Source: Thermodesulfovibrionia bacterium
GTDB taxonomy: Bacteria; Nitrospirota; Thermodesulfovibrionia; UBA6902
Assembly: GCA_945788685.1 (NCBI GenBank)
Contig: CALZMZ010000015.1
Location: 1 to 32,891, forward strand
Reading direction: 5' to 3'
DNA length: 32,891 nucleotides
Made by a program: the position numbers and the translations under genes. This document shows positions 3,782 to 26,226 of this stretch, piece by piece. The stretch's first letter is position 1; each line of letters opens with the position of its first letter. The notes under the pieces are model-generated. The model ran no database searches, was not told the DNA's origin, and saw only the letters and a program-made list of their open reading frames with translations.

Positions 3782-5571
3782 TGTTTGCCATAAGTTTAAC
3801 CATGAACGTAAACATCAACGACAAAATAGGTACTATTGTAAATGATATTGTTCCTGTGGACCGGGTAGCACAGAAAGTCAACAGAAAGCTCCAGCTGCTG
3901 CATATTGATTCAGCAGGAATATCAAAGACCTCAGATGCAGATATGCTTTCACAGACAATCCAGGTGTCCAGTGAAAGGATTAAGGACATTAAAGCCTTTA
4001 TGGCCGCATTATTAACAGGCGGCAGAATTGCGGACATTAACAGGGACAATGGCCAGCTCATAGAGAGTTTCAGTGTTGAAGCTATTCATGATGTCCCGGC
4101 ATTAAAATTTTATTCAGTTAATTTGAGTCCTCTGCTTGTTGAAATGGAAAGTACTATTGAATCGTTTGGGGCATTAAGCAAAAATGAGCTGAATAAATTA
4201 CGGGAAGATGGTGTGCTGGCAGATCAGCTAAGCGGGTATGATAATGTCCTGACTGATGCCAGAAAGCTGTCAAGAGCGTTTTCCGCTAATGTTACAAAGT
4301 TATATACGGCAAACTCAACACAGATAGTTGATGCAACCCAATTTACGTTTTATGCATTTATAGCAGTACTTTTTATAGCTACTTCCCTGCTCGTGATATT
4401 CACCATTTCAATTTCCAGATCAATTGCTGTGCCTGTTACCGCGATAATGCGTCAGATACGGCTGCTTGGAACAGGCAAGGTAGATATGTCAAATAAAATC
4501 AAGATCAGGTCAAAAGATGAGATCGGGCTTTTGTCAGAAGATTTCAATAAACTAACGAAAGAAATTAATGACATCGTAACATTCAAAAAGGTCATTGAAG
4601 AAGATGACAGTCTTGAAGATGTGTATTCACGGCTGGGCAAGTCATTCAGCGAAAAATGCAATATTAATGATTTTGTTATCTATGAAGTATCGAGTGCAAA
4701 GAGCAAGATGAGGCCGGTTCAGCCGATCATATTAAACCCGAAAGAGATATTCTGTAATGAAGAGATCCTGGACAACTGCGAATTATGTAAAGTCAAGAAA
4801 ACAGGACACACTATTTCATCAATGGATTATCCTGATGTATGCAAGCAGTTCAGGAGGGGGATTGAAAAGGTCCATCTGTGCATGCCCATGATAGTGGGAG
4901 GTAAAACAGGAGGGGTAGTGCAGTTCCTGTTTGACGATCACAATTATGAAGAAGAACTGAAATACAAAAGAATGTTCAAAGCAGAGCAGTTCATAAAGGA
5001 ATCATTGTCTGTAATCGAGGCAAAGAGGCTGATGAATACCCTGAGGGAATCTGCACTGAAAGACCCGCTGACCGGACTGTATAACAGAAGATTTTTACAG
5101 GAGTACACAGAGACCCTGGTAGCGGGTGCTCAGAGGAAGGGCAAGAGTGTAGGTCTGTTAATGTGTGACCTTGATTTCTTTAAGCAGATTAATGACCTTC
5201 ATGGTCATAATGTCGGAGATGCTGTTCTTAAGGAAACATCCAGCCTCATCAGTAAAAGTGTACGAAAGGCAGACCTCGTTATCCGGTTCGGAGGGGAAGA
5301 ATTTCTTGTCATATTAATGGACATTAATGAAGGGGAATCAATGCAGATTGCAGAAAAGATCAGGGAGACCATCGGAAAATCAAAAATAAAGATAACGGAC
5401 GGCACTATCACAAAGACAATCAGTCTCGGGATAAGTGAGTTCCCCTCAGACACGGAGAGCTTCTGGCAGGCAATTAAATTTGCTGATGTGGCCCTGTACA
5501 AGGCCAAAGAAACCGGCAGGAACAAGTCAGTGAGGTTTATTGAAGAGATGTGGTCAGAAGACGGTTTTTAA
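3778..5571 (+). CDS. Membrane diguanylate cyclase: sensor, HAMP, GAF-like, GGDEF
   Basis: The protein makes cyclic di-GMP from two GTP. In order: remainder of helix 1 (1-10), a helical periplasmic sensor (about 15-190), helix 2 (about 200-223), HAMP (about 213-265), a GAF-like region (about 280-400) with Cys326, Cys334, Cys337, Cys355 and Cys368, a short coiled coil, and a complete GGDEF domain (about 435-590). The catalytic motif is GGEEF (505-509), and an RxxD inhibitory site (RKAD, 496-499) stands five residues before it, so product inhibition is expected. The DPLTGLYNRR motif opens the domain. The N-terminal helix is split off into the preceding ORF, with ATGA overlap; as it stands this ORF lacks a full first membrane segment. 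I saw no c-di-GMP riboswitch in the 235-base leader. Confidence 0.9.
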   Translation: MMFAISLTMNVNINDKIGTIVNDIVPVDRVAQKVNRKLQLLHIDSAGISKTSDADMLSQTIQVSSERIKDIKAFMAALLTGGRIADINRDNGQLIESFSVEAIHDVPALKFYSVNLSPLLVEMESTIESFGALSKNELNKLREDGVLADQLSGYDNVLTDARKLSRAFSANVTKLYTANSTQIVDATQFTFYAFIAVLFIATSLLVIFTISISRSIAVPVTAIMRQIRLLGTGKVDMSNKIKIRSKDEIGLLSEDFNKLTKEINDIVTFKKVIEEDDSLEDVYSRLGKSFSEKCNINDFVIYEVSSAKSKMRPVQPIILNPKEIFCNEEILDNCELCKVKKTGHTISSMDYPDVCKQFRRGIEKVHLCMPMIVGGKTGGVVQFLFDDHNYEEELKYKRMFKAEQFIKESLSVIEAKRLMNTLRESALKDPLTGLYNRRFLQEYTETLVAGAQRKGKSVGLLMCDLDFFKQINDLHGHNVGDAVLKETSSLISKSVRKADLVIRFGGEEFLVILMDINEGESMQIAEKIRETIGKSKIKITDGTITKTISLGISEFPSDTESFWQAIKFADVALYKAKETGRNKSVRFIEEMWSEDGF

Positions 5572-24652: not shown

Positions 24653-24741
24653 AGATGAAAGCTGACAAGTCTAAAAATACTTGCAAAACTGAGAAAAATA
24701 TGTTTATGTATTTATTAAAATTCATGGAAAGGAGGGATTAA

Positions 24742-25068
24742 ATGAAAATATTATCTATTTTCCTGATGGTGTTGATGCTGGCTCTGATAGGGTGTTCAAC
24801 AAAGTATACTTTTGAACCGGGAGATAAAGCATTACTAGATAGCGCCATGGATAATGCCAGAGATGCAAAAGCATCAGCAGACAGTGCGTCAGCTTCAGCC
24901 AGTAAGGCAACAAGTGAAGCTGACCGGTCCGAGGCTGCTGCTGACCGGTCCGAGGCTGCTGCTGACCGGTCCGAGAGAGCTGCCAACAGGTCGGAAAGAG
25001 CTGCTGACAGCGCAAATACAGCAGCGGAAAAAGCTGTCAAGGCATTTGAAATGAAACAGCGGAAGTAA
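24742..25068 (+). CDS. OprI/Lpp-like alanine-zipper lipoprotein
   Basis: A lipobox (LIGC, Cys18) follows a short signal peptide, so the mature protein is an acylated lipoprotein of 91 residues. The mature chain is one long helix of heptads rich in Ala, Ser, Asp and Arg (ADRSEAA repeated), an alanine-zipper pattern as in Pseudomonas OprI and E. coli Lpp. It ends KAFEMKQRK: the C-terminal lysine is the residue through which Braun's lipoprotein is joined to peptidoglycan. The mature part is longer than the 58 residues of E. coli Lpp. AAAGGAGGG precedes ATG 24742. The adjacent convergent gene is an L,D-transpeptidase of the type that performs this linkage. Trimerisation and tethering are inferred. 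Confidence 0.85.
   Translation: MKILSIFLMVLMLALIGCSTKYTFEPGDKALLDSAMDNARDAKASADSASASASKATSEADRSEAAADRSEAAADRSERAANRSERAADSANTAAEKAVKAFEMKQRK
24919..24981 (+). repeat. 21-bp tandem repeat encoding one heptad per unit
   Basis: The unit GCTGACCGGTCCGAGGCTGC plus one base is present as two perfect copies (24919-24939, 24940-24960) and a diverging third. Each unit equals seven codons, one turn-pair of the coiled coil, so copy number would change the helix length without a frameshift. Confidence 0.9.
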
Positions 25069-25947
25069 TTAATTGGATATTAAAGCGGGAAGCCCTGTTG
25101 CACTTTTTATTGATTTAATCATTAATGCAGTGTTTACATGTTTTAACAGGTGCTTCCCGTGAAGTTTTTTGATCACCGTTGCAATTAGCTCCGATTCAAC
25201 CATGTCTGAGTTATGGATCTCGATATATATTTTGTCACCATGCATTCCAACCTTTACCGGTTCACTGATAATTTTTACAGGTGTACCCACCGCGACATAA
25301 CTGAATAAATCTTTTATATCTTCAGGATAGAGCCTGATACATCCCTGACTGACTCTTCTCCCGATCCCATAAGGCCTGTTTGTTCCATGGATTCCGTATG
25401 AATCCAGGGAAAGCTGCAACCAGTGGCTTCCCAGGGGATTGTCCGGTCCCGGGTGCACATAGAGAGGCAGGTCCGGATCCTCCTTTCGGGAAGCTTCAGG
25501 AACTTTCCATATCGGGTCCCTGATCTTAAGGGTAATACGATACGTACCTGTTGGAGTGTTAAAACCCTGTCTTCCTATTCCTATAGGGTAGGTCTTTATA
25601 AATCTGGATTCCTGAACAGAGAAGAAATAATATAATCTCAGTTCCGCCAGATTGATAATAATGCTGTTCTCAATTAATTCCGGAATAAGCCATGATGTTG
25701 GAATAACTACTTCTGTTCCTTTTCCAGGCACCCATGGATCAATATGTTTATTGGCGTCCATAATTTCGTTATAGCCTGTATCATATGTCCTCGCGAGTTC
25801 AATCAGGCTTTCACCGTCCTTCAGGATGTATGATCTGTTCTTACCGATTAAATACATATGGTCGGAATCAACAGGAAATGCCCCGGATGCGGATATATCA
25901 GTCGGGGAAAAGATAATCGTCAGACATATAATTATAAAAATATACAC
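25069..25947 (-). CDS. L,D-transpeptidase, ErfK/YbiS type, with LysM domain
   Basis: The protein has a signal peptide (MYIFIIICLTIIFSPTDISA), a LysM-like peptidoglycan-binding domain (about 33-83) and a YkuD catalytic domain (about 95-215). Active-site residues are His187 in YGIHGTNRPYGIG and Cys203 in VSQGCIRLYPEDI; the SQGC form is the one found in E. coli ErfK-type enzymes. These enzymes attach lipoproteins to peptidoglycan or make 3-3 crosslinks. The start is GTG 25947, needed to include the signal peptide; no ribosome binding site is seen, and a -10-like TATAAT at 25965-25970 would leave a leader of about 11 bases. The stop codon directly abuts that of the convergent lipoprotein gene. 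Confidence 0.93.
   Translation of the reverse strand: MYIFIIICLTIIFSPTDISASGAFPVDSDHMYLIGKNRSYILKDGESLIELARTYDTGYNEIMDANKHIDPWVPGKGTEVVIPTSWLIPELIENSIIINLAELRLYYFFSVQESRFIKTYPIGIGRQGFNTPTGTYRITLKIRDPIWKVPEASRKEDPDLPLYVHPGPDNPLGSHWLQLSLDSYGIHGTNRPYGIGRRVSQGCIRLYPEDIKDLFSYVAVGTPVKIISEPVKVGMHGDKIYIEIHNSDMVESELIATVIKKLHGKHLLKHVNTALMIKSIKSATGLPALISN
25085..25170 (+). terminator. Putative terminator of the lipoprotein gene, inside the opposing gene
   Basis: GCGGGAAGCCCTGTT (25085-25099) pairs with AACAGGTGCTTCCCGT (25145-25160) with one bulge. The loop contains a nested TGATT/ATCA hairpin. GAAG and six Ts follow (25165-25170). It lies within the coding end of the L,D-transpeptidase on the other strand. 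Confidence 0.45.
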
Positions 25948-25981
25948 GGTGTTTATTTTACTTAATTATAGTTTTTTTTGT

Positions 25982-26005
25982 AGGGGCACGTAGCAACGTG
26001 CCCCT
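25982..26005. repeat. Dispersed GGGGCACG hairpin, copy 3
   Basis: AGGGGCACGT and ACGTGCCCCT form a perfect 10-bp stem with a 4-base loop (AGCA). It lies between the L,D-transpeptidase promoter region and the TPP riboswitch. Confidence 0.6.
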
Positions 26006-26053
26006 GCGTTTGTATGAGGTTGACTACTTTTCAACACAGAGGTATACTTTAAA

Positions 26054-26212
26054 TCTACCCTAGGGGAGGCATAGCCTGAGAGTCTCACTGACAGAACTCA
26101 GAGCCCGGAGCACAGACCCTGGAGTAACGAATTAATCTGTGTTCTGATATCTGTGTTCTGAAGTGGGAGACCCTCCGAACCTGAACTGGTTAATCCCAGC
26201 GAAGGAAAGGGA
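26054..26212 (+). promoter_or_regulatory. TPP riboswitch (THI element) with enlarged P3 arm
   Basis: The conserved cores are intact: GGGGAGGC, then GCCTGAGAG on the 5' side, and GACCCTCCGAACCTGAACTGG followed by TTAATCCCAGCGAAGGAA on the 3' side. This is the thiamine diphosphate aptamer. Between them the P3 arm is expanded to about 90 bases and includes a direct repeat (TCTGTGTTCTGATA then TCTGTGTTCTGA) pairing back to CACAGA and AGAAC. A terminator follows. It should repress the thi operon when TPP is abundant. Confidence 0.95.
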
Positions 26213-26226
26213 AGCGAAATCATATT

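Follow-up and report, generated by a model that had tools for sequence, protein, structure and literature searches.

A convergent gene pair of an Lpp/OprI-like lipoprotein and an L,D-transpeptidase in Nitrospirota: a predicted outer-membrane tether and its ligase

Organization of the Locus

The stretch of DNA analyzed here (the window, 32,891 nucleotides) was contig 15 in the draft assembly (2.6 Mb) of a Thermodesulfovibrionia bacterium (Nitrospirota). It carried a lipoprotein gene and an L,D-transpeptidase (LDT) gene in convergent orientation, with 0 bp between the two ORFs and their stop codons directly adjacent (Table 1).

Table 1. Features of the lipoprotein and LDT genes in the window
Feature	Position	Strand	Remarks
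Shine-Dalgarno AAAGGAGGG	24728..24736	+	Strong; 5' of the lipoprotein start codon (ATG); conserved in relatives
Lpp/OprI-like lipoprotein gene, predicted outer-membrane tether	24742..25068	+	108 aa, 91 aa mature; orthologues in 21/61 related genomes (E ≤ 1e-20)
Signal peptide MKILSIFLMVLMLALIG and lipobox LIG|C	24742..24795	+	Predicted lipidated Cys codon 24793-24795; Ser at +2
21-nt tandem repeat coding heptads	24919..24975	+	Perfect, 2.7 copies; 4.3 copies at 85% match, reaching 25008
C-terminal anchor box KAFEMKQRK	25039..25065	+	Terminal Lys codon 25063-25065, predicted linkage residue
ErfK/YnhG-type YkuD LDT gene, predicted ligase	25069..25947	-	292 aa; best PDB match 9tyw, 7.4e-59
YkuD catalytic domain	25270..25668	-	His187 and nucleophile Cys203 (codon 25339-25341) in HGTNRPYGIGRRVSQGCIR; columns invariant in the LDT alignment
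LysM-like segment of LDT	25738..25830	-	aa 40-70; PF01476 19.2 bits, cut-off 20.9

The LDT scored 94.6 bits against the YkuD model PF03734 (cut-off 23.4), and its active-site motif, HGTN...SQGCIR, was intact. The nearest NCBIfam model was LdtE (2.8e-56), and the score against the LdtE equivalog NF047955 was 191.1 bits, which lay under the 480-bit cut-off. An earlier sequence-only reading of the locus had described the convergent neighbor of the lipoprotein as an ErfK-type LDT, and these matches supported that description.

Alanine made up 29% of the mature part of the lipoprotein, which contained the Ala-rich heptads RSEAAAD RSEAAAD RSERAAN RSERAAD, and the translated ORF ended in ...KAVKAFEMKQRK. 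Both curated Lpp/OprI models scored under their cut-offs (NF040598, 22.5 of 43 bits; PF11839, 13.8 of 23.1 bits), and the protein would thus be called just Lpp-like by score. Its assignment as Lpp/OprI-like is nevertheless firm because of its relatives: G17 and C18 of the lipobox were invariant in 17 aligned lipoproteins, and the terminal Lys was invariant as well. The lipobox, alanine-zipper helix and C-terminal lysine proposed from the window sequence were therefore confirmed. The PDB profile search with the lipoprotein returned generic coiled coils only and no PDB Lpp match by sequence. The genome search with PF11839 was silent in every control genome and was thus uninformative. When the window genome was searched for the pattern [ASTP]FExxQxK-stop, the lipoprotein was the sole match.

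The window genome also encoded LolA and ten OmpA-domain proteins, and the latter indicated that non-covalent tethers coexist in this host. Two further YkuD proteins were found, one of the YcbB type (L176) and one of a short type with TDGCIA (L177). The short protein (L177 1363–1917, contig 99) had DpaA/YafK as its nearest curated model, with 42 of 365 bits; from its sequence, it is a candidate detaching enzyme that would fit a DpaA-like role better than the window LDT. For the window LDT itself, a role as a DpaA-like detachase was ruled out by SQGCIR, whose Arg DpaA lacks.

Conservation of the Pair in Related Genomes

Orthologues of the LDT (E ≤ 1e-80) were detected in 20 of 61 related genomes. 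The lipoprotein (E ≤ 1e-20) occurred in all 20 of these and in just one (G028) of the 41 genomes that lacked the LDT; these are raw counts, uncorrected for shared ancestry, but presence and absence alternated within one genome family. Co-occurrence of the pair was thus seen among the relatives. The lipoprotein was the convergent neighbor of the LDT in 19 of the 20 LDT-bearing genomes. The exception was G019, in which the lipoprotein contig carried just a C-terminal remnant of the LDT and the full LDT lay on another contig; this split may be genuine or may stem from misassembly. Repeat-like stretches (TGTCATTCCGGCTTGTCCGGAATC and similar) were observed at the expected place of the lipoprotein beside the LDT in G019 (L037 ~4000–4370, reverse complement).

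G028 showed the otherwise conserved gene order with the LDT missing between thiH and the lipoprotein (L083 6551–6861), and is a natural loss of the LDT alone. The retention of the lipoprotein in this genome, together with the two further YkuD proteins of the window genome, would be consistent with anchoring by another YkuD enzyme, the window LDT having a different function, for example D-amino acid exchange. However, G028 also carried a second LDT-lipoprotein pair, and the other YkuD proteins of the window genome belonged to the YcbB type and the short DpaA-like TDGCIA type. Moreover, OprI of P. aeruginosa is anchored by LdtPae2 (PA14_27180) and by no other enzyme (PMC10434034). Anchoring by another enzyme is therefore regarded as very unlikely.

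The second type of pair was found in seven genomes of the same family, where a longer LDT was followed by a different alanine-zipper lipoprotein on the same strand. An eighth genome, G009, possessed the second-type lipoprotein, and its LDT was cut by the contig end. The C-terminus of these lipoproteins was FQKSMKK or similar. SPOR domains were present in the single second-type LDT that was scanned, and the one second-type lipoprotein tested scored above the Lpp/OprI cut-offs (69.6 and 39.1 bits for NF040598 and PF11839, respectively). The occurrence of two LDT types with two lipoprotein types in two orientations argues for a functional link.

In the nearest relatives, the pair was flanked by the aconitase and thiamine genes, as in the window. 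All other neighbors changed in the distant members (L042, L046–L050) and in the same-genus genome G003, and the pair persisted. The LDT of G003 was identical to that of CP070644.1 (Nitrospiraceae bacterium), and the more distant genomes of the class grouped with Thermodesulfovibrio loci in a quick LDT tree.

Distribution of the Pair across Phyla

A scan of named genomes in a genome collection yielded 80 LDT loci, and 106 LDT loci were examined overall. Partners were recognized by a lipobox, a charged signal peptide, an Ala-rich helix and few Pro or Trp residues; a terminal Lys was not required. Convergent alanine-zipper lipoproteins were found at 63 of the 80 scan loci, and a nearby same-strand alanine-zipper gene at five more. 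The 63 paired loci belonged to Nitrospirota (18), Gammaproteobacteria (17), Alphaproteobacteria (8) and, for the remainder, mostly to Thermodesulfobacteriota and Myxococcota, of which Anaeromyxobacter and Geobacter are certain and some loci titled just Deltaproteobacteria may be misassigned between the two phyla. The pair in Geobacter was seen at loci L104 and L116. The lpp gene of E. coli was missed by the detector because its Ala content was just under the threshold.

Over the 106 LDT loci there were 84 convergent partners, with gaps of −35 to 347 bp, and other alanine-zipper lipoprotein candidates in the flanks numbered only 6. A terminal K was found in 81 of the 84 partners, compared with 8.6% of 455 flanking ORFs, and a fair background may exceed this percentage since a terminal Lys is reported for >20% of the periplasmic proteins and lipoproteins in E. 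coli (PMC12274547). The terminal lysine of the homologues was thus retained well beyond the close relatives. The three partners without it were L096, L097 and L122: one ended in KR and two were of the Magnetominusculus type. The Magnetominusculus-type partners (L096 2930–3304 and L097 2055–2420) had a long Lys/Ala/His-rich tail, and their LDT and its active site were intact.

As far as gene order tells, the pairing of an LDT with a lipoprotein is not special to the Nitrospirota lineage but is the norm in several phyla, and this kind of outer-membrane tether probably long predates, and extends far beyond, the gammaproteobacterial textbook system. The earlier proposal that substrate and enzyme genes are paired outside the gammaproteobacteria was accordingly borne out, as a gene pair, in Nitrospirota. 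Two publications describe Lpp and its covalent tethering as confined to a gammaproteobacterial or Pseudomonadota subclade (PMC12274547; PMC10260701, citing Witwinowski 2022). With respect to the open-access literature that was searched, both the occurrence in Nitrospirota and the wide distribution of the linked pair are new, and an earlier report may exist; the device itself, Lpp/OprI plus an LDT, is of a known kind.

The conservation of the aconitase and thiamine genes around the pair in the nearest relatives would be compatible with an adjacency that reflects chance or plain shared synteny without a functional link. However, the pair recurred in nearly all LDT orthologues while its flanks changed, and it was thus not due to chance; it persisted where every other neighbor differed and across several phyla, and the second pair combined another LDT type with another orientation. 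Chance adjacency was ruled out by the co-occurrence of the two genes, by their persistence amid changed flanks and by this spread, and an explanation without a functional link is hardly credible.

Comparison with Escherichia coli and Pseudomonas

The sequence-only reading had stated that the corresponding genes are not adjacent in E. coli. This proved incorrect: in strain MG1655, lpp (b1677, +) and ldtE (b1678, −) are convergent neighbors, 63 bp apart (L178 4422–5726). This arrangement suggests that the ancestral site of the Lpp ligase is the one now occupied by LdtE. The genes ldtA, ldtB and ldtC, which encode the proven Lpp-anchoring enzymes of E. coli, are located away from lpp. In a quick tree, LdtA, LdtB, LdtC and LdtE formed one fully supported clade within the paired LDTs, which points to duplication of a single ancestral partner in the E. 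coli lineage. Lpp resembles the window lipoprotein in its lipobox, coiled-coil rod, C-terminal Arg-Lys and convergent LDT neighbor; it differs in its mature part of 58 aa, in being anchored by enzymes encoded elsewhere and in having a neighbor, LdtE, that is assigned to 3-3 cross-linking and not to Lpp anchoring (PMC12729407). The adjacency of LdtE to lpp therefore means that gene order is no proof of the reaction, and LDT activities are not predictable from sequence lineage (PMC10434034).

These two points raise the main doubt about a ligase function, namely that the window LDT might make 3-3 cross-links like E. coli LdtE, its lipoprotein being free or a non-covalent coiled coil and the gene order a relic. 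LdtE adjoins lpp, is the closest curated model to the window LDT and has the cross-linking assignment (PMC12729407). On the other hand, the terminal Lys and the box KAFExxQxK were conserved beside the LDT, and the two genes were gained and lost jointly; a free lipoprotein would need none of these. In addition, the YcbB-type LDT (L176) is a separate candidate cross-linker in the window genome, and the single clade of the four E. coli enzymes means that the role change of LdtE can be local to its lineage. We consider cross-linking by the window LDT the less probable function, although it deserves to be taken more seriously than the other alternatives.

In two Pseudomonas-like genomes (OprI 98% and 89% identical), oprI was convergent with an LDT gene, the product of which was ~37–39% identical to the window LDT. 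This neighbor matches LdtPae2, as judged from its sequence and from locus tags and not from a named P. aeruginosa genome. One of these tags was PA2853. The other was PA2854 (PMC9948630). The OprI/LdtPae2 system resembles the window pair in its convergent genes, its alanine-zipper lipoprotein ending in Arg-Lys and its LDT of the ErfK lineage, and PDB 9tyw, the best structural match of the window LDT, is close to the Pseudomonas enzyme. The differences are that mature OprI has 64 aa and the window lipoprotein 91, that the LDT identity is only ~37–39%, and that attachment is proven in Pseudomonas and predicted for the Nitrospirota pair. For OprI, a Tri->KR adduct is reported (calculated 1,154.567; PMC10434034), and the Arg-Lys end of the window lipoprotein would yield the same one.

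Rod Length and C-Terminal Tail

In the 17 aligned lipoproteins, all internal gaps of the helix were 7, 14 or 21 residues long, and other gaps occurred only in the N-terminal linker beside the Cys. Mature lengths among the relatives were 84, 91, 98 and 105, or two less with a short linker, and the nearest relative of the window lipoprotein was exactly one heptad shorter. Tandem arrays had a period of 21, 42 or 63 nt in 34 of 50 array-bearing partner genes, and the lengths of the 84 partners modulo 7 were mostly 0 or 3 (32 and 28, respectively). These sequences suggest that tether length varies naturally by whole heptads. Such steps are visible in the sequences of close relatives and would arise via gain or loss of 21-nt units. 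According to PMC8824477, Lpp length follows a strict rule to which Geobacter is the exception; that Geobacter protein is likewise an Lpp-like lipoprotein, of at least 99 residues, from outside the Gammaproteobacteria, but here most partners ranged from ~63 to 112 aa. The LDT is not discussed in the available portion of that paper.

The C-terminal tail was not restricted to the paired lipoproteins. In the Thermodesulfovibrio-like genomes G058–G060, KAFELQQKK ended the main lipoprotein, and a second lipoprotein ended with a near variant. The same tail ended a lipoprotein of 325–339 aa with weak propeller-like matches (read in G058 and G059). The larger lipoproteins were located at L089 3772–4791 (+) and L090 4424–5401 (−), and the G060 copy was placed by motif only (L088 ~4916–5104). 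In G037, an OprF-like beta-barrel protein (L087 5143–6003, −) ended as an Lpp-like alanine zipper with SFEKSLIK, and the paired lipoprotein ended in TFEKQLVK; the former is predicted from its sequence to be a covalently tethered barrel. The idea of a widespread family of barrel-zipper hybrids was rejected, as G037 stood alone among 200 genomes of the class. Within one genome, the tail varied in parallel among the proteins that bear it, as would be expected were a single enzyme to recognize it. A non-Lpp protein, D. dadantii OutB, is known to be attached covalently by a C-terminal Lys box that YkuD LDTs recognize (PMC12274547). It differs in being an inner-membrane protein with an Lpp box and no lipoprotein rod, and its enzymes are not described as gene neighbors in the accessible sections of that paper.

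Proposed Function of the Pair

Based on the above analyses, the two genes most likely encode a substrate and its dedicated ligase, and we consider it probable that the LDT links the terminal Lys of the lipoprotein to peptidoglycan. After export and lipidation on Cys18, the lipoprotein would be delivered to the outer membrane, as suggested by the lipobox, the Ser at +2 and the LolA of the genome. Its 91-residue heptad helix, which like that of Lpp is probably a trimeric coiled coil, would span the outer periplasm as a rod. By analogy with LdtPae2/OprI and LdtA-C/Lpp, the LDT would load a peptidoglycan tetrapeptide stem on Cys203 with release of D-Ala, and then join the diaminopimelate carbonyl to the C-terminal Lys through the amine of its side chain. 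The outer membrane would thereby be bolted to the wall.

A broader scenario can be proposed, which as a whole has in our view about even chances of being right. The covalent Lpp-LDT tether would be an ancient module of Nitrospirota, Thermodesulfobacteriota, Myxococcota, Alpha- and Gammaproteobacteria and not an invention of a proteobacterial subclade; lpp-ldtE would be what remains of it after displacement, the anchoring role having been taken over by the in-paralogues LdtA, LdtB and LdtC; the rod would be a ruler adjusted in 21-nt heptad steps; and the tail would be portable, as on the barrel protein and the propeller-like lipoprotein. If substrate and enzyme are indeed a conserved pair in several phyla, the history of the attachment of the outer membrane to the wall would change, and each bearer would gain a predicted ligase. 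Rods differing by whole heptads would provide a natural series on whether Lpp length sets the width of the periplasm.

Elements Upstream of the LDT Gene

A TPP riboswitch, one stem of which carries a long insertion (~78 nt), was located in the window at 26052–26224 (+), 5' of a ThiH-like gene and thiamine genes. Its score of 51.8 bits fell short of the gathering score (54.3), and it was therefore missed at the default threshold. Between this riboswitch and the start of the LDT gene, there was a stem-loop of 13 bp, TGTAGGGGCACGTAGCAACGTGCCCCTGCG (25979–26008, +), which is either terminator-like or a dispersed repeat.
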